Positions 385 to 8,513 of a DNA stretch of 11,424 bases are shown in pieces. A program made the position numbers and the translations under genes. The stretch comes from Ruminiclostridium sp. (GTDB lineage Bacteria > Bacillota_A > Clostridia > Oscillospirales > Ruminococcaceae), in assembly GCA_017550775.1 (NCBI GenBank), contig JAFZOA010000694.1, positions 1 to 11,424 on the forward strand, written 5' to 3'. The notes beneath the pieces are model-generated. The model was given only the letters and a program-made list of their open reading frames with translations. It ran no database searches and was not told where the DNA came from. Numbering within the stretch: the stretch's first letter is position 1; the number at the start of each line of letters is the position of its first letter.

Positions 385-489
385 ATGTACGTTACATGGA
401 ATGAACTATTTCAGTACGACCAGGTGATAATTGCTATTATTACTTTAACGGTGACCTTTATGGTTTACATAAATAGAAAAAAGAAATAA
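385..489 (+). CDS. Small membrane toxin, type I TA (Hol-Tox/TxpA-like)
   Basis: The gene encodes 34 residues: a short N-terminus with TWNELFQ (4-10), one hydrophobic membrane segment (about 13-29) and a basic end, NRKKK. This is the layout of the small holin-like/TxpA-BsrG class of type I toxins, which insert into the inner membrane and depolarise it. The ATG follows AGGGGG (371-376) by 8 nt, and a perfect promoter lies 69 nt upstream. Its 3' end overlaps an antisense RNA transcribed from 570, the arrangement seen in txpA/RatA and bsrG/SR4. The assignment rests on size, topology and the facing antisense promoter; I could not compare it with a database. A harmless small membrane protein is the alternative. 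Confidence 0.7.
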   Translation: MYVTWNELFQYDQVIIAIITLTVTFMVYINRKKK

Positions 490-1518: not shown

Positions 1519-4098
1519 ATGAAGATCAACAAGATCCTCGCGGCAGGCGTTGCCGCAACACTCGCTGTTACTTCCCTCTCCGCTGTTGTAAGCGCAGAGA
1601 CAGTAACTAAGTCTTTCGACATGGGCACAAGCGTTGCTACTTACAAGCTCAACACAACTGAGAACTGGAAGAGCGTTGACTTCCTCGCAGCTGTAGATCC
1701 GCTCACAGGCGCTACTATCCCCTCTGCTGCTATCGTTGAACCGCTGGTAGACGGCGACAAGCTCGTTTACGACTTCTCCGAAGCATACTTCGATACATGG
1801 GGCGGCACTGTTAAGAAGACATCCGTTAAGGTAAACAGCGTTAAGCTCAAGGTTACAGGTATCCAGGGTGCTAAGAACAACTCTTCCAAGGAGTACACCT
1901 ACGAGTTCAAGAACGTTGACAACAAGAACATCAAGTTCGAGCTCACAATGAACAAGAGCGTAGGTAAGGGCTTCATCCCCACACAGTTCGTTGAGATCAC
2001 AAAGGCTGAAGTTGTTATCGACTTCCAGTTCGATTCCACAAACGAGACCCTCTTCAAGAACGCTAAGAACAGCAATTCTTCCAGCGCTGAATGGGGTGGC
2101 GGACTCCAGAACATCAAGGTAACAACAGTTAAGACTGCTGCTGCTGACCTCGATGCTCTCAAGAAGGCTGCTAACGAAGCTCAGGCTAAGTGGGATGCTG
2201 CTGAGGCTGCTTACGACAAGGCTAAGGCTGATTACGACAAGGCAGTGAAGGAGAACGAAGGCAAGACCAAGGACGCTCAGGAAGCTTATGACGCAGCTGT
2301 AAAGAACCTCACAGAGGTTAACAGCCAGGCTCAGATCTACCTTGCTAACCAGACAACCGGTATCCCGGATCTCCTCACACAGAGCTACAAGGATGCTGCA
2401 GATCTCAGAATGGATGACATCTACGCTTACACCATTGAACAGGGTATTGTTGTAAAGGAAAATGAGCAGCAGCAGCCGCCTGAGGGTGAACAGTGGACAA
2501 CTCTTGATAAGATTCTGGCGGATGCAAAGAAGGAACAGGCAGAGGAAGAGAAGAAGGCTACTACTGCTGCTGCTAACAAGCAAGCTGCTGAAGCTCTCTA
2601 CGCAGTAGCTCAGCAGGCTATAGAAGCTGTTGGCGGTTCAGCCGTGTTAAATGAGGAAGATCCCGGACTGTCTGTAGTTAATTTCCCCGCAGCATTAGAA
2701 ATTCCGGAAGAGACTCAGGCTCAGCTCAAGAACAACTACCTCCAGGCTGCATCTCAGAAGGTAGCTTATACAAACGCAGAGGCTATGGCTACTGCAAGAG
2801 TAGCACTCATCAAGGCTATCGTAGAAGATATCGAGGAAGATATAAAGGAATTCGACAAGCTCGTTGAGACTGAAAGAACCGCTTTAGTTAAGCCCTACAC
2901 CGATGCTAAGGACGCTGCTAAGAAGGCTCTCGACGGTATCGGTACTGTAGACGACACAGCTCTCAAGGCTGCTGAGAAGGCTGCTGACGATGCTGAGACC
3001 GATTACGAGATCGCTCTTGCTGTTTACCTCTCCGCTCTTGAGGCAGGCGGCGACAACATCATCAACGTTATCAACGGTCTCGTTCCCGGCTACTATGAGA
3101 ACGCTTCCTTCGGTGACATCACATCCGAGATCAGATACGCTCCTCTCTACAAGACCACTAACAACACAACAATCGGACGTAAGGATGTTTGGGCTCTGTC
3201 CATAACAAACGACCACTACTCTGATTCTTACTCCACAGGTTCTTGGTACGATGACGAAGCTAACCAGTCCTACAACAACGACGACGTACATGACGGTACT
3301 GTTAAGAGAGCTTTCGCAGGTCTCGCTTCTCAGGCTGCTGACTTCTTCAACAAGCAGGACAACGGTAAGATCATATTCAAGTTCGCTAACCCCGCTTCTA
3401 CATCCAGCACTTGGGTAAACGGCGGTATCCCGTCCACTGAAGTTGGTCTTAAGTCCGCTATAGCTGGTACAAACTTCGGTATGTTCTGGAACTACGACCT
3501 CTCCACAGGTCAGCTCGTAGCTCTCGGCCAGGTTGACAGCGATGCACTCACAGTTACATTCGACGTAAGCCAGATCCTCGACGATATGGGCGGCCTCACA
3601 AAGGGCAACCTCGCTGATATCTACTACGGCATGAACTCCGGTAAGACATACGGCACTCCCTACAACTTCACCGGCTACCTCGTAGAGAAGGTAACATTCG
3701 AGTACGACGATGCTGAGTCTGAGACAGACGCTGAGACTGAGACTGTTGACGATACCGATGACGATACAGAGACAGTTGACGACGAAGACGACGACTACGA
3801 AGAAGAAGACGACGATGACGACTACGTTGAAGACGAAGACGACGACGACGACTACTTCATCGATGACGAAGACGACGACGACGATGACGCTTACATCGAA
3901 GACGAAGACGACGACGATGATACAGCTGCAGTCGTAGTTGAAGACGACAGCGACGACACAGACACCAACAATGACGTTGTAATCGTAACTCCCGTTAAGG
4001 AAGACGACGATGCTAACCCCGGAACAGGCGTTGGTCTCGCAGTTATCCCCGCTATCGTAGCTGCTGCTGCAATGGCTATCTCCAAGAAGAGAAAGTAA
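1519..4098 (+). CDS. Abundant acidic sortase-type surface protein, 859 aa
   Basis: ATG 1519 follows AGGAGG (1504-1509) and opens a classical signal peptide (cleavage after VVSA, residue 26). Residues 27-205 look like a beta-rich domain. Residues 209-275 and about 360-500 are Ala/Lys/Glu-rich and likely coiled coil (DAAEAAYDKAKADYDKAVKE). About 513-728 is a second globular domain rich in Tyr, Trp and Asn. Residues 729-826 are an Asp/Glu-rich low-complexity tract with runs of up to six Asp. NPGTG (833-837), a hydrophobic segment and KKRK end the protein, the pattern of sortase substrates with a non-LPXTG motif. I see no cysteine. Codons are strongly biased (AAG, CTC, GAC, TAC), as in very highly expressed genes, so an S-layer-like or major wall protein is plausible. 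No known family or enzymatic motif was recognised. Confidence 0.85.
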   Translation: MKINKILAAGVAATLAVTSLSAVVSAETVTKSFDMGTSVATYKLNTTENWKSVDFLAAVDPLTGATIPSAAIVEPLVDGDKLVYDFSEAYFDTWGGTVKKTSVKVNSVKLKVTGIQGAKNNSSKEYTYEFKNVDNKNIKFELTMNKSVGKGFIPTQFVEITKAEVVIDFQFDSTNETLFKNAKNSNSSSAEWGGGLQNIKVTTVKTAAADLDALKKAANEAQAKWDAAEAAYDKAKADYDKAVKENEGKTKDAQEAYDAAVKNLTEVNSQAQIYLANQTTGIPDLLTQSYKDAADLRMDDIYAYTIEQGIVVKENEQQQPPEGEQWTTLDKILADAKKEQAEEEKKATTAAANKQAAEALYAVAQQAIEAVGGSAVLNEEDPGLSVVNFPAALEIPEETQAQLKNNYLQAASQKVAYTNAEAMATARVALIKAIVEDIEEDIKEFDKLVETERTALVKPYTDAKDAAKKALDGIGTVDDTALKAAEKAADDAETDYEIALAVYLSALEAGGDNIINVINGLVPGYYENASFGDITSEIRYAPLYKTTNNTTIGRKDVWALSITNDHYSDSYSTGSWYDDEANQSYNNDDVHDGTVKRAFAGLASQAADFFNKQDNGKIIFKFANPASTSSTWVNGGIPSTEVGLKSAIAGTNFGMFWNYDLSTGQLVALGQVDSDALTVTFDVSQILDDMGGLTKGNLADIYYGMNSGKTYGTPYNFTGYLVEKVTFEYDDAESETDAETETVDDTDDDTETVDDEDDDYEEEDDDDDYVEDEDDDDDYFIDDEDDDDDDAYIEDEDDDDDTAAVVVEDDSDDTDTNNDVVIVTPVKEDDDANPGTGVGLAVIPAIVAAAAMAISKKRK

Positions 4099-4143
4099 TC
4101 TGACTATCATCAGATCACGAGATAACTCATAATCGGTAAAACT

Positions 4144-4176
4144 GACCGGAGCCGGTAACGGTTCCGGTCGTTTTTC
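4144..4176 (+). terminator. Intrinsic terminator after the 859-aa gene
   Basis: GACCGGAGCCG (4144-4154) pairs with CGGTTCCGGTC (4159-4169), one G-U pair, loop GTAA, followed by GTTTTT. It lies 46 bp after the stop codon and isolates this gene from the next. Confidence 0.85.
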
Positions 4177-4228
4177 CATAACGTATTCGCTTATTATTAC
4201 TTCGGCAATAAAACAATTGGCTGTTTAC

Positions 4229-4259
4229 GTTCTTTCCCCGCCTCCGGCGGGGAAAGAAC
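4229..4259. repeat. 14-bp perfect intergenic hairpin
   Basis: GTTCTTTCCCCGCC (4229-4242) and GGCGGGGAAAGAAC (4246-4259) are perfectly complementary around TCC. No T-run follows on either strand, so it is not a standard terminator. Its core TTTCCCCGCC...GGCGGGGAA is the same as in the hairpin at 772-793. A smaller hairpin, TTTACCCC/GGGGTAAA (4307-4314/4324-4331), follows. I see no confident promoter between 4177 and 4352. Confidence 0.5.
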
Positions 4260-4352
4260 AAAAACAAACTATTTAGTTGCCGTATCAATTAAGCTAAGCG
4301 ATCATGTTTACCCCGCCTGATATGGGGTAAAAATGAAAAAACATTGGTTTAG

Positions 4353-4528
4353 ATATCAACAGCAGAGGTGCTGTAGATATACGGCGTGCGGTAAGGTGCC
4401 GCACGAACTCCACAGGGTAAGCTGCGAGCGCCGAGCGGCGGGGCTTATCCGCTAAAAGACAGTCTGCGAAGGTGCGGTAACACCGGAGCGGGCGCCCGAT
4501 GAACGCGGTGTGCCAAAACGCGGTCATC
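4353..4528 (+). ncRNA. Structured RNA upstream of the 502-aa gene (raiA-like?)
   Basis: This GC-rich stretch folds into successive helices: ACAGCA/TGCTGT (4359-4364/4369-4374) inside ATAT/ATAT; CGTGCGG/CCGCACG (4385-4391/4399-4405); GGGTAAGC/GCTTATCC (4415-4422/4443-4450) enclosing CGCC/GGCG (4429-4432/4437-4440); GGTG/CACC (4471-4474/4481-4484); and GATGAACGCG/CGCGGTCATC (4498-4507/4519-4528, one mismatch). Unpaired segments such as AACTCCACAGGG and CTAAAAGACAG look like conserved RNA joints. It ends 15 nt before the ribosome binding site of the gene at 4560, with no terminator between. Some segments recall the raiA ncRNA family, from memory only. It could be a free ncRNA or a regulatory leader. 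Confidence 0.6.
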
Positions 4529-4559
4529 AAAGAAATCTTAAAAGGAGGATAACAATCCA

Positions 4560-6068
4560 ATGAGAAACTTCAAGAAGATAGCAGCTTGTGCGGCTGCTGT
4601 CATCTGCGCGGCAGCAATGGCTACCACAGCAAGCGCAAAGATCAAAGTTGTACCTTCCGACAAGCACATTCTGAGTGAGAGCGGAAGCTTCCTGGTAATG
4701 CTTTATTCCGACGGTACTTATGACAAGTCCACAAAGGATCCGACCGACTACGGCATTGATCTGACAAAGATCGCTACCGTTGAGGTGACCGTTAAGGGCG
4801 GCGACGGATTTGAAGGCAACATGGGCGGCGGTATCATCATGTCGTCCAAGTCCCCCGACGATGCTTCGACACACAACTGGCCGAGCAAAGAGTACTGGGG
4901 CGTTGTTGACGAGGATCTCGGTCTCGACACTCAGGCAGAAAAGGCTGTCAAGTTCGACACAATAGGAAGCGGCCTGTACAAGGCTACTCTTAAGCTCGAA
5001 GGTGCAAACACAGTAATCGACAAGTACAACTTTGTTCAGTTCGCTATCCAGGACTGGGGCAGCGATGAGATCGAAGTACAGTCCATCGTAATGAAGGACG
5101 CTTCGGGCGCTGAGCTGATCTCCTTCGACAAGAACGGTAAGGCACGCCTCGAGAACATCTGGGGCAAGGAGAAGGCTGAGGAGACCAAGGCAGAGGAAAC
5201 AGAGGCTCCCGAGGAGACAACTGCTGCCGAGGAAACCACAGAGAAGACCAAGAAGACCAAGAAGACTACCGAGGAGGTAGTTGAGGAAGAGATCGTTGAG
5301 GAAGATTCCGACGAGGATACCACCGGTTCCGATGACGATGAGGACGACGCAGAGGACGAAGATGCTGCAGAGCCTTTCTGGGTAGGTGCCGAGGAAGGTT
5401 CCGGTACAGAGATACTCGCTCCGTGGCTGAGCTTCGACAAGCTCGCAGGCGTTCCGAACAAGCCCTGCCTGATTCTCTGCTCTGAAGACGACAATGCTGA
5501 GCCTCCGGCTGACGCAGAGCTCGACTTCAAGGTAAGCGATATCTACGGTTTCAGATTCTACGTTCAGGTAGATCAGACAGCGTGGGATAACTGGCACGGC
5601 GGTCAGGTCGGCACAAACTCCGCTCTGGGCGGCTGGTCAACACTCGTTGACTACTCCACAGGCAACGACCTCGGCAACCTCGATATCGACCTCGACGCAG
5701 GTACATTCACCTACATGAGCGATACTCCTCTCTTCGCACAGGACGAGCAGGATATGGGCGGCTATGCTCACATCTGGCTTATGGACTGGTCGAACGGCGA
5801 TGACGCTCTCGTAACAGTCGGCGTTGACGTACTTGACAAGGACGGTAACAACCTGTTTGATGCTCCCGTAGCAGTTGTTGAGGAAGCTCCGGCAGTTGAG
5901 GAAACTCCCGTTGTTGTTGAGACTCCTGTTGTTGTAACAGGCGACGTAGCAGCGGCTACAGACAGCACAAAGGGCTCACCTGACACAGGTGTTGCTGATG
6001 TTGCAGTTGTTGCAGGTCTCGGACTTGTAGCAGCAGGCGCTGTAGTAGTAGCTAAGAAGAGAAAGTAA
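4560..6068 (+). CDS. Sortase-anchored surface protein with two beta domains, 502 aa
   Basis: The start follows AGGAGG (4543-4548) by 11 nt. A signal peptide ends at TASA (residue 26). Domain 1 (about 27-198) and domain 2 (about 271-433) are beta-rich and Trp/Gly-rich. Both hold a similar stretch, GNMGGGIIMSS and HGGQVGTNS, which suggests an internal duplication. Such Trp-rich beta domains on anchored proteins often bind polysaccharide; this is inference. They are joined by an acidic Glu/Thr/Lys linker (199-270). A Val/Pro/Glu stalk (434-465) leads to SPDTG (473-477), a hydrophobic segment and KKRK, matching the wall-sorting signal of the 859-aa protein upstream. Expression may depend on the structured RNA directly upstream. 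No catalytic motif was seen. Confidence 0.85.
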   Translation: MRNFKKIAACAAAVICAAAMATTASAKIKVVPSDKHILSESGSFLVMLYSDGTYDKSTKDPTDYGIDLTKIATVEVTVKGGDGFEGNMGGGIIMSSKSPDDASTHNWPSKEYWGVVDEDLGLDTQAEKAVKFDTIGSGLYKATLKLEGANTVIDKYNFVQFAIQDWGSDEIEVQSIVMKDASGAELISFDKNGKARLENIWGKEKAEETKAEETEAPEETTAAEETTEKTKKTKKTTEEVVEEEIVEEDSDEDTTGSDDDEDDAEDEDAAEPFWVGAEEGSGTEILAPWLSFDKLAGVPNKPCLILCSEDDNAEPPADAELDFKVSDIYGFRFYVQVDQTAWDNWHGGQVGTNSALGGWSTLVDYSTGNDLGNLDIDLDAGTFTYMSDTPLFAQDEQDMGGYAHIWLMDWSNGDDALVTVGVDVLDKDGNNLFDAPVAVVEEAPAVEETPVVVETPVVVTGDVAAATDSTKGSPDTGVADVAVVAGLGLVAAGAVVVAKKRK

Positions 6069-7067: not shown

Positions 7068-8057
7068 ATGATATGCAGCAATTGCGGAAAAGAAATATCG
7101 GACACCGCGAAGTTCTGCCGCTTCTGCGGAACTAAGGTCGAATGGGAGATGTACTGCAAGGAGTGCGGAGCAAAGCTCCAGTCGGACAGCGCGTTCTGCT
7201 CCGAGTGCGGAAAGCCGCTCGCGGGAAATGCGGAAAGTGCGGCGGATGAAGTTCCGGTCGGGGGCTTCCGCTGGGAGGAGGACAGCGCCGGAAACGTCTT
7301 TGTCACCGGTCACTCCGGGAACGGCAGCATTGTCAATATCCCGCCGGTCATAGACGGCAAGCGCGTTACGGAAATTTCCTCGGGCGCGTTCCGCGAGAAC
7401 AAGGCTGTGACCGATATAACAGTTCCGCGCAGCGTTGTGCGGATCGGAAACCGCGCGTTCAGCAACAGTCCCTCGCTCAGAAGCGTGACGATAAAGGCTG
7501 AGATCACGGAGATCGGCCGGGAGATGTTTTATAAGTGCACCGCGCTTACAGACGTGAAGCTTCCGGACACTGTCAGAGTGATAGAAGCGTCGGCGTTTTA
7601 CGGCTGCACCGAGCTCCGGAGCATAACGATACCGGAGGGCGTGACCGAAATAGGCGCGGAGGCTTTCATGGGCTGCACCGAGCTCGAAATCGTGACGATA
7701 CCGGACAGTGTTGTTGAAATAGGAGACGGTGCGTTCAAGTACTGCAAGTCGCTGAAAAGTGTAACGATACCGGCCGGCTTGAAGCGGACGGGAGAACGTG
7801 TGTTCATCGACTGTCAAGCACTCGAAAGAGCAGAAATAAAGCCCGGTGCGGAAGAAATAGGGGTACAGATGTTCTATTATTGCAGTCGGCTCAGAAGCGT
7901 CGATATACCGGACAGCGTCGTGAGGATCGGTGAGTATGCTTTTGACCACTGTCCCTCGCTTACGGTGACATACAGAGGAAAAACGTACAAACCGCAGGGG
8001 GACGACTCAGCCGAACTCAAAGAACTGTACGGCGATATAAACAATGCGGGAAAGTGA
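7068..8057 (+). CDS. Double zinc-ribbon protein with BspA-type leucine-rich repeats
   Basis: The 329-aa product opens with two short zinc ribbons: C3/C6...C17/C20 and C30/C33...C44/C47, all CxxCG-type knuckles. A linker (about 49-95) follows, then BspA-type (LRR_5) leucine-rich repeats of about 23 residues to about residue 310, with the recurring pattern ITIPxxVxEIGxxAFxxCxxL. AAGGAG (7053-7058) precedes the ATG. There is no signal peptide and no membrane segment, so it should stay in the cytoplasm, whereas most BspA-LRR proteins are secreted. The zinc ribbons probably hold structural zinc and both parts mediate binding; no partner can be named. It forms a single-gene unit. Confidence 0.85.
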   Translation: MICSNCGKEISDTAKFCRFCGTKVEWEMYCKECGAKLQSDSAFCSECGKPLAGNAESAADEVPVGGFRWEEDSAGNVFVTGHSGNGSIVNIPPVIDGKRVTEISSGAFRENKAVTDITVPRSVVRIGNRAFSNSPSLRSVTIKAEITEIGREMFYKCTALTDVKLPDTVRVIEASAFYGCTELRSITIPEGVTEIGAEAFMGCTELEIVTIPDSVVEIGDGAFKYCKSLKSVTIPAGLKRTGERVFIDCQALERAEIKPGAEEIGVQMFYYCSRLRSVDIPDSVVRIGEYAFDHCPSLTVTYRGKTYKPQGDDSAELKELYGDINNAGK

Positions 8058-8280: not shown

Positions 8281-8457
8281 GATGTAGATGTAACTTTCAC
8301 CAAACTTTCACGGAGAGGGGCTTGACAACGATGTCCGTGCGTGATATACCCGCAACAGCACAGCACACGGCTAACTGCGCTCTTTTGTCATGCCCGGAAC
8401 TCAATACAGGCTATAACGCTCGTGACCGCAGTATAACTATGGTTACGGGCGTTTTTG
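8281..8457 (+). ncRNA. Leader RNA with built-in terminator (attenuator candidate)
   Basis: Transcripts from 8281 run about 130 nt and then meet a complete terminator at 8415-8457, before the coding region at 8514. CACGGA/TCCGTG (8309-8314/8334-8339) forms an additional hairpin. I see no promoter between the terminator and the gene, so expression seems to need read-through, as in riboswitch or attenuator control. The sequence does not match any riboswitch I know. It could also be a free small RNA of about 175 nt. Confidence 0.5.
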
Positions 8458-8465
8458 TATTATAA
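8331..8465 (+). CDS. Possible 44-aa leader peptide
   Basis: ATG 8331, preceded by GGAGAGGGG (8312-8320), opens a 44-codon frame (MSVRDIPATAQHTANC...) that ends with TAA 8463-8465, running through the terminator hairpin at 8415-8457. Ribosomes on it would open or mask that hairpin. It shows no run of a single amino acid typical of biosynthetic attenuators and no known family, so it may be chance. Confidence 0.25.
   Translation: MSVRDIPATAQHTANCALLSCPELNTGYNARDRSITMVTGVFVL
8415..8457 (+). terminator. Terminator in front of the large surface gene
   Basis: AACGCTCGTGACC (8415-8427) pairs with GGTTACGGGCGTT (8441-8453), 13 bp with two G-U pairs, and continues into a run of five Ts (8452-8456). 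It sits inside the leader, upstream of the coding region at 8514. Confidence 0.75.
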
Positions 8466-8513
8466 ACTATCCCGCAGGGCGCGGGAAATACATAAATGAA
8501 AGGAAAACTCACA

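Follow-up and report, generated by a model that had tools for sequence, protein, structure and literature searches.

Immediately upstream of a gene for a sortase-type surface protein in Ruminiclostridium sp. lies a structured RNA, built around three covarying hairpins with invariant loops, that is new as a family relative to Rfam 15 but belongs to a kind already known, the orphan structured cis leaders, here from a single gut and rumen genus of Clostridia. We give about an even chance to the reading that this previously uncatalogued leader family exerts translational control in cis, through a conserved YUCC joint that would hide the Shine-Dalgarno (SD) sequence; the leader probably controls the amount of surface protein made. 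Little has been described about how fibre degraders of gut and rumen control their many anchored surface proteins, and a conserved leader with an SD-complementary joint offers a testable handle on the post-transcriptional regulation of a few of them. Throughout, the window (W) is the whole 11,424-nt stretch of DNA analysed, and coordinates are numbered from its first letter.

The 461-nt intergenic gap between the upstream gene and the ATG of the surface-protein gene (Table 1) holds the region at 4353-4528, whose 3' edge coincides exactly with the end of helix Pd. MFE folds of the region contain at least six helices (the first hairpin, Pa, Pb, and two stems each in Pc and Pd), with an energy of -75.7 kcal/mol; dinucleotide shuffles give -63.4 +/- 4.1 kcal/mol, and one in 200 is equally stable (z -3.0). 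Longer stretches behave similarly, with z of -3.4 at 4340-4559 (0/200 shuffles as stable) and -3.5 at 4312-4580. Across the 125-146 nt cores of eight copies z runs from -1.1 to -3.9, which is moderate on its own, and, as judged from the sequences, the decisive support for structure is covariation with relatives rather than stability. The original prediction had described a highly structured RNA of at least six helices, placed after a terminated gene and before a ribosome binding site, in cis to a sortase-type surface protein and with a riboswitch-like build; folds, shuffles, covariation and the flanking terminator-like hairpin, SD and gene bear this out in content and coordinates. The downstream protein has a signal-peptide-like start, two beta-sandwich domains (about residues 31-192 and 283-426) and an acidic linker, and ends in an SPDTG anchor, a membrane span and a KKRK tail; on that tail the NF033846 (Rumino_NPXTG) model aligns at 30/30 positions with 16.9 bits, under its cut-off of 23.5, and the upstream gene likewise matches NCBIfam Rumino_NPXTG under cut-off (E 0.02).

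Table 1. Positions of the leader, its parts and its neighbours in the window
Feature	Positions	Strand	Basis or remark
Upstream gene (MKINKILAAG...), NPGTG-type anchor	1519-4098	+	Syntenic with the RNA
Terminator-like hairpin after the upstream NPGTG-type gene	4143-4170	+	12-pair stem, then TTTTT
Candidate promoter TTGCCG-17-GATCAT, weak	4277-4305	+	8/12 matches; RNA start would be ~4312
First hairpin of leader, loop GAGG	4353-4380	+	MFE folds; no relative was seen to have it as a unit
Hairpin Pa, apical UAAGGUG	4385-4405	+	MFE; UAAGGUG common to L053 and L067
Conserved joint YUCCAC (CTCCAC in window)	4408-4413	+	UCCAC in 8/8; CUCC (4408-4411) complementary to GGAG (4544-4547)
Helix Pb	4415-4450	+	4415-4422 with 4443-4450; apical stem 4429-4432 with 4437-4440; covariation
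Pb internal loop UGCGAG	4423-4428	+	Part of helix Pb
Helix Pc	4462-4493	+	4462-4467 with 4488-4493; 4471-4474 with 4481-4484; covariation
Pc loop CGGUAA	4475-4480	+	GCGGTAACA invariant in 8/8
Helix Pd	4498-4528	+	4498-4502 with 4524-4528; 4504-4507 with 4519-4522; covariation
Pd loop GUGUGCCAAAA	4508-4518	+	Contains GUGCC, invariant in 8/8
SD GGAGGA, putative target of YUCC joint	4544-4549	+	Sequence
Downstream sortase-type surface-protein gene, 502 aa	4560-6068	+	ATG at 4560

Relatives of the RNA were reached by way of the downstream protein, for which there were 154 homologues among 7993 scored candidates; an 11-sequence protein alignment (A2) scanned against genome contigs yielded 55 loci, many of them from rumen or gut samples, whose titles name Ruminiclostridium, Ruminococcus, Ruminococcaceae, Clostridia and a few others. 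With the window RNA as single query, nhmmer gave one clear match among the fetched loci (L053, E 2.4e-8) and weak leader matches in L016 (0.02), L067 (0.052), L013 (0.13 and 0.53) and L038 (0.33), while the L014 copy was added by motif search. The covariance model R1 returned six of seven copies (members of its training set) at E <= 1.5e-21, and L067, outside that set, at E 0.0043. There are eight full copies in six genomes, seven of them from relatives: besides that of the window, two in L013 (G001) and one each in L014 (G451), L016 and L038 (both G418), L053 (G397) and L067 (G426), the last being the most diverged, with a Pb that lacks the UGCG internal loop. All eight stand directly before an SD and a signal-peptide-like gene, within 25 nt, and the genes that follow are of the same surface-protein kind. 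Seven fetched loci contain the MKINK...NPGTG gene; in all seven the signal-peptide-like gene that comes next bears the RNA or its GUGCC hairpin, which makes the arrangement syntenic.

The family is narrow as far as the sequences sampled reveal, with full copies in 5/71 genus genomes and none added by the order sample. Model R2, built from all eight copies, matched six of the 71 genus genomes at E <= 0.1, five of which hold full copies (G001, G418, G451, G397 and G426); the seven full copies involved were all training copies, so the 71 genomes yield no new one, and the sixth genome, G446, is a weak match corresponding to L019. In an even sample of the order, one of 394 genomes (G001 itself) matched at E <= 0.01; in an even sample of the family, scanned with R1, two of 396 matched (G001 and one chance match). 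Both scans ran under stricter filters, so that diverged copies may be missed.

Comparison of the copies supplies the covariation. In the eight-row model alignment (A5), which was fitted to the model structure and hence leans towards it, 94.3% of cells are paired under the Pb-Pc-Pd structure and 15 of its 25 pairs carry two-sided changes; none of 500 shuffles reaches any of five measures, and pairing falls to 26-41% when partners are slid by 1-3 columns. A hand alignment by helix, biased in the same way, has 156/159 cells paired and double changes in 14/21 pairs, against shuffled means of 117 and 7 and maxima of 132 and 12 (2000 shuffles). RNAalifold, run with no structure supplied on A4, in which MAFFT aligned the seven clearest copies, recovered Pb, Pc and Pd in part, with two-sided changes in 5/21 pairs and a small covariation term (-0.53), probably because MAFFT misaligns some of the stems. 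The inner stem of Pd illustrates the pattern, reading CGCG/CGCG in the window versus GCGC/GCGC in most relatives. UCCAC, GCGGUAACA and GUGCC are invariant in 8/8 copies and remain unchanged while the stems are rewritten between relatives. Compensatory changes in the relatives support Pb, Pc and Pd, and what emerges is a conserved structured domain with covarying helices in what is presumably an mRNA leader, as in riboswitches.

The leader status follows from the surroundings of the copies. TTGACA-17-TATAAT, with 12/12 matches, stands upstream of five of the eight (five of the seven relatives) and predicts leader lengths of 161-190 nt; the best candidates in the window reach 8/12 (TTGCCG-17-GATCAT and two others), the best for L014 reaches 9/12, and the L067 copy is too near its contig end for a good promoter match. 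By the weak match in the window, the 5' start of the leader probably lies upstream of 4353, at about 4312. No copy has a terminator-like T run (T runs reach at most 4 over the 180 nt that precede the SD), which makes control by termination inside the leader unlikely and, together with the perfect promoters of five copies, makes a cis-acting mRNA leader most likely. Region 4353-4528 thus most likely belongs to the 5' leader of the mRNA for 4560-6068, and the promoter position suggests that leader and gene are transcribed as a single mRNA. That the region instead yields a small RNA acting in trans, either made independently or cut out of the leader, is by comparison very improbable: processing could take place between Pd and the SD, and raiA/ModT, a riboswitch-looking RNA reported to act in trans (PMC11706538), provides a precedent, but the structure is followed by no terminator-like T run and the SD and gene adjoin every copy found.

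How such a cis leader might act is suggested by its pairing with the SD. RNAalifold on A4 forms an outer helix between YUCC, in the joint before Pb, and GGAG of the SD in 7/7 rows, the variable pair being U.G or C-G. As the SD is invariant, this helix shows no two-sided covariation. The whole-leader MFE of the window pairs 4408-4411 with 4544-4547, and YUCC:GGAG is present in the whole-leader MFE of three of the eight copies (W, L053 and, with 3 of 4 pairs, L016). Across the eight, the UCC pair probability ranges from 0.04 to 0.81, lying below 0.1 in both L013 copies (L013a and L013b), L014 and L067; 30 random 4-mers placed at the joint position have per-copy means of 0-0.022. UCCAC occurs in 8/8 full copies, 0/3 hairpin-only leaders and 2/94 other leaders; plain YUCC is common, being found within 170 nt of the SD in 36 of the 94. 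Consensus pairing of YUCC with GGAG around the three hairpins suggests translational control, and the marginal helix may fit a switch, but may equally be a chance match of 4 nt.

Under the proposed mechanism, Pb, Pc and Pd with their invariant loops would form a compact domain. In a closed form the YUCC joint would pair with GGAG of the SD, shutting the three hairpins into a multi-branch fold that masks the ribosome binding site, whereas in an open form the SD would be free and the surface protein made; some small molecule, protein or physical cue would shift the balance. That the SD is hidden in vivo and that a signal exists are both what we infer. A stronger version, in which Pb-Pc-Pd forms a new riboswitch class that would sense a small molecule, perhaps fibre-derived or a signalling compound, and gate carbohydrate-binding-like surface proteins through the SD-hiding joint, seems to us unlikely.

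The hairpins could instead be a passive stability or standby element, a chain that protects the mRNA of an abundant surface protein against attack at its 5' end and keeps an AU-rich stretch before the SD free for landing, with no switch involved. We consider this possible, if rather unlikely. Mean SD unpaired probability is 0.42 in the eight full copies, 0.49 in the three hairpin-only leaders and 0.44 in the 94 others, without difference, so that accessibility is not lower than in other leaders, which also speaks against hiding of the SD; the perfect promoters suggest high expression; and, by eye among the leaders listed, many anchored-protein leaders of the genus consist of a hairpin after the -10 box followed by an AU-rich stretch and GGAGG. 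Short leaders of this type were observed, for example, at 1490-1518 of the window and 2880-2907 of L013, where the hairpin (for example GUAGGUAAUGACAAAAUUUACC) comes right after the -10 box. A shield, however, needs no invariant loops, and it is the three conserved segments that stay fixed here while the stems change.

The GUGCC loop also turns up outside the full copies. Hairpins bearing it occur in 11 leaders, 22-28 nt from GGAGG, namely the eight full copies, two in L015 and one in L019; the latter three keep the hairpin without recognisable Pb and Pc, and have YUCC but lack UCCAC. The first L015 copy and that of L019 lie at the same syntenic place, which makes it probable that they derive from the same element by divergence. 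Of 105 leaders that precede signal-peptide-like genes, eight show the loop in the MFE, whereas 20 rounds of mononucleotide shuffling average 0.2 and never exceed 1; three of the eleven (L013a, L016 and L038) are without it in that MFE. As its most widely kept part, the hairpin might be a docking site at which a trans-acting protein or small RNA reads the Pd loop near the SD, with Pb and Pc accessory, an account that we regard as improbable. It draws on the occurrence of the hairpin in three leaders without recognisable Pb or Pc and on the excess over shuffles; against it, a trans regulator would have few targets, at one or two genes per genome, and model R3 (GUGCC hairpin plus SD) finds at E < 1e-4 in 71 genomes only its 10 training copies. 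These score at E <= 4.2e-5 and nothing else appears until 0.0077; at E <= 0.5 there are matches in 52/71 genomes, as expected by chance, and none of four weaker matches examined is of this kind, the best preceding a GAPDH-like gene.

That the RNA is itself a catalogued one in a new place, and raiA in particular, has next to no probability. The original prediction had tentatively related it to raiA on a few sequence segments, which are the only support for the idea, and the segment CACAGGGTAAG proves to be part of the UCCAC joint and helix Pb, with letters that covary between species. The whole window has no match to Rfam 15 at gathering score, and hence no confident match to an unrelated known class. 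Positions 4099-4620 give six matches at E <= 10, all under gathering score and all looking like chance, among which raiA (RF03072), whose model is in the library, is absent. Four sit upstream of the region, on a hairpin around 4202-4292 (best MIR2655, E 0.0064, 4202-4284), and one falls in the coding start; the sole match inside the region, Entero_5_CRE (E 0.53), lies on the minus strand across Pc and Pd and was taken as chance. Six full-copy loci of relatives have only two tRNAs at gathering score and six matches at E <= 1, none of them in the leader; the L015 and L019 leaders have no Rfam match at E <= 0.1 and none at gathering score, a MIR1437 match in L019 (791-864) being under gathering score and away from the leader. 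At E <= 0.001 raiA was found in 0/71 genus genomes, yet 14 control genomes were equally silent, so this count does not prove absence. At the sensitivity of Rfam, the reading as raiA or another catalogued RNA is refuted.

Set beside known systems, the RNA resembles translational riboswitches and orphan leaders in that its conserved loops sit on helices that covary, directly in front of one kind of gene, together with a conserved SD-complementary segment and no terminator-like T run. Unlike riboswitches, it is so far restricted to one genus, with one or two copies per genome where present, and precedes a surface protein rather than a transporter or biosynthesis gene. With raiA/ModT (RF03072) it shares a multi-helix build of about 200 nt in a Gram-positive-type bacterium, but it differs in its lack of a covariance-model match and in its fixed place before an SD and surface-protein gene. 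Among the open-access papers listed for the subject, none concerns such a leader. Should a ligand exist, the RNA would represent a new class of riboswitch linked to functions of the cell surface; should it serve stability alone, it would remain a well-defined family of structured RNA, new and missing from Rfam.

In the genus, leaders that precede a gene we take, from its protein sequence, to be rpsB-like (L070, L075, L092, L093 and L094) include some that match R1 weakly, mostly through an AU-rich stretch and GGAGGA and, in L075 and L093, through a UCCACAU segment. Unlike the present RNA, these ribosomal-protein leaders are without good equivalents of Pc and Pd, and their downstream gene is unrelated; they were rejected as family members, the similarity being taken as chance. 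In their own right, the five share a structured-looking GC-rich stretch that has no Rfam match at E <= 0.1.

Several other features were observed in the window. Between the terminator-like hairpin and the leader, 4215-4273 forms a long hairpin with 28-nt arms, 82% complementary, and a 3-nt loop, perhaps a second terminator. A GGUAAC loop, like that of Pc, is present in the terminator-like hairpins that follow the MKINK gene, at 4143-4170 and at about 4827-4852 of L015. At 385-486 (+) an ORF encodes 34 hydrophobic residues with a basic tail (MYVTWNELFQYDQVIIAIITLTVTFMVYINRKKK), beside two 90-nt repeats that are 92% identical (520-609 and 671-760) and an inverted repeat (288-339/705-756), an arrangement that presumably resembles a type I toxin-antitoxin locus; the ORF product has no Pfam match at E <= 10 and two NCBIfam matches to sorting tails, under cut-off. 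The gene at 8496 has a long leader (8281-8495) in which, by eye, a hairpin around GACCGCAGTATAACTATGGTTACGGGCG is followed by TTTTTG, a possible attenuator. The protein encoded at 7068-8057 combines N-terminal zinc ribbons with BspA-type leucine-rich repeats.
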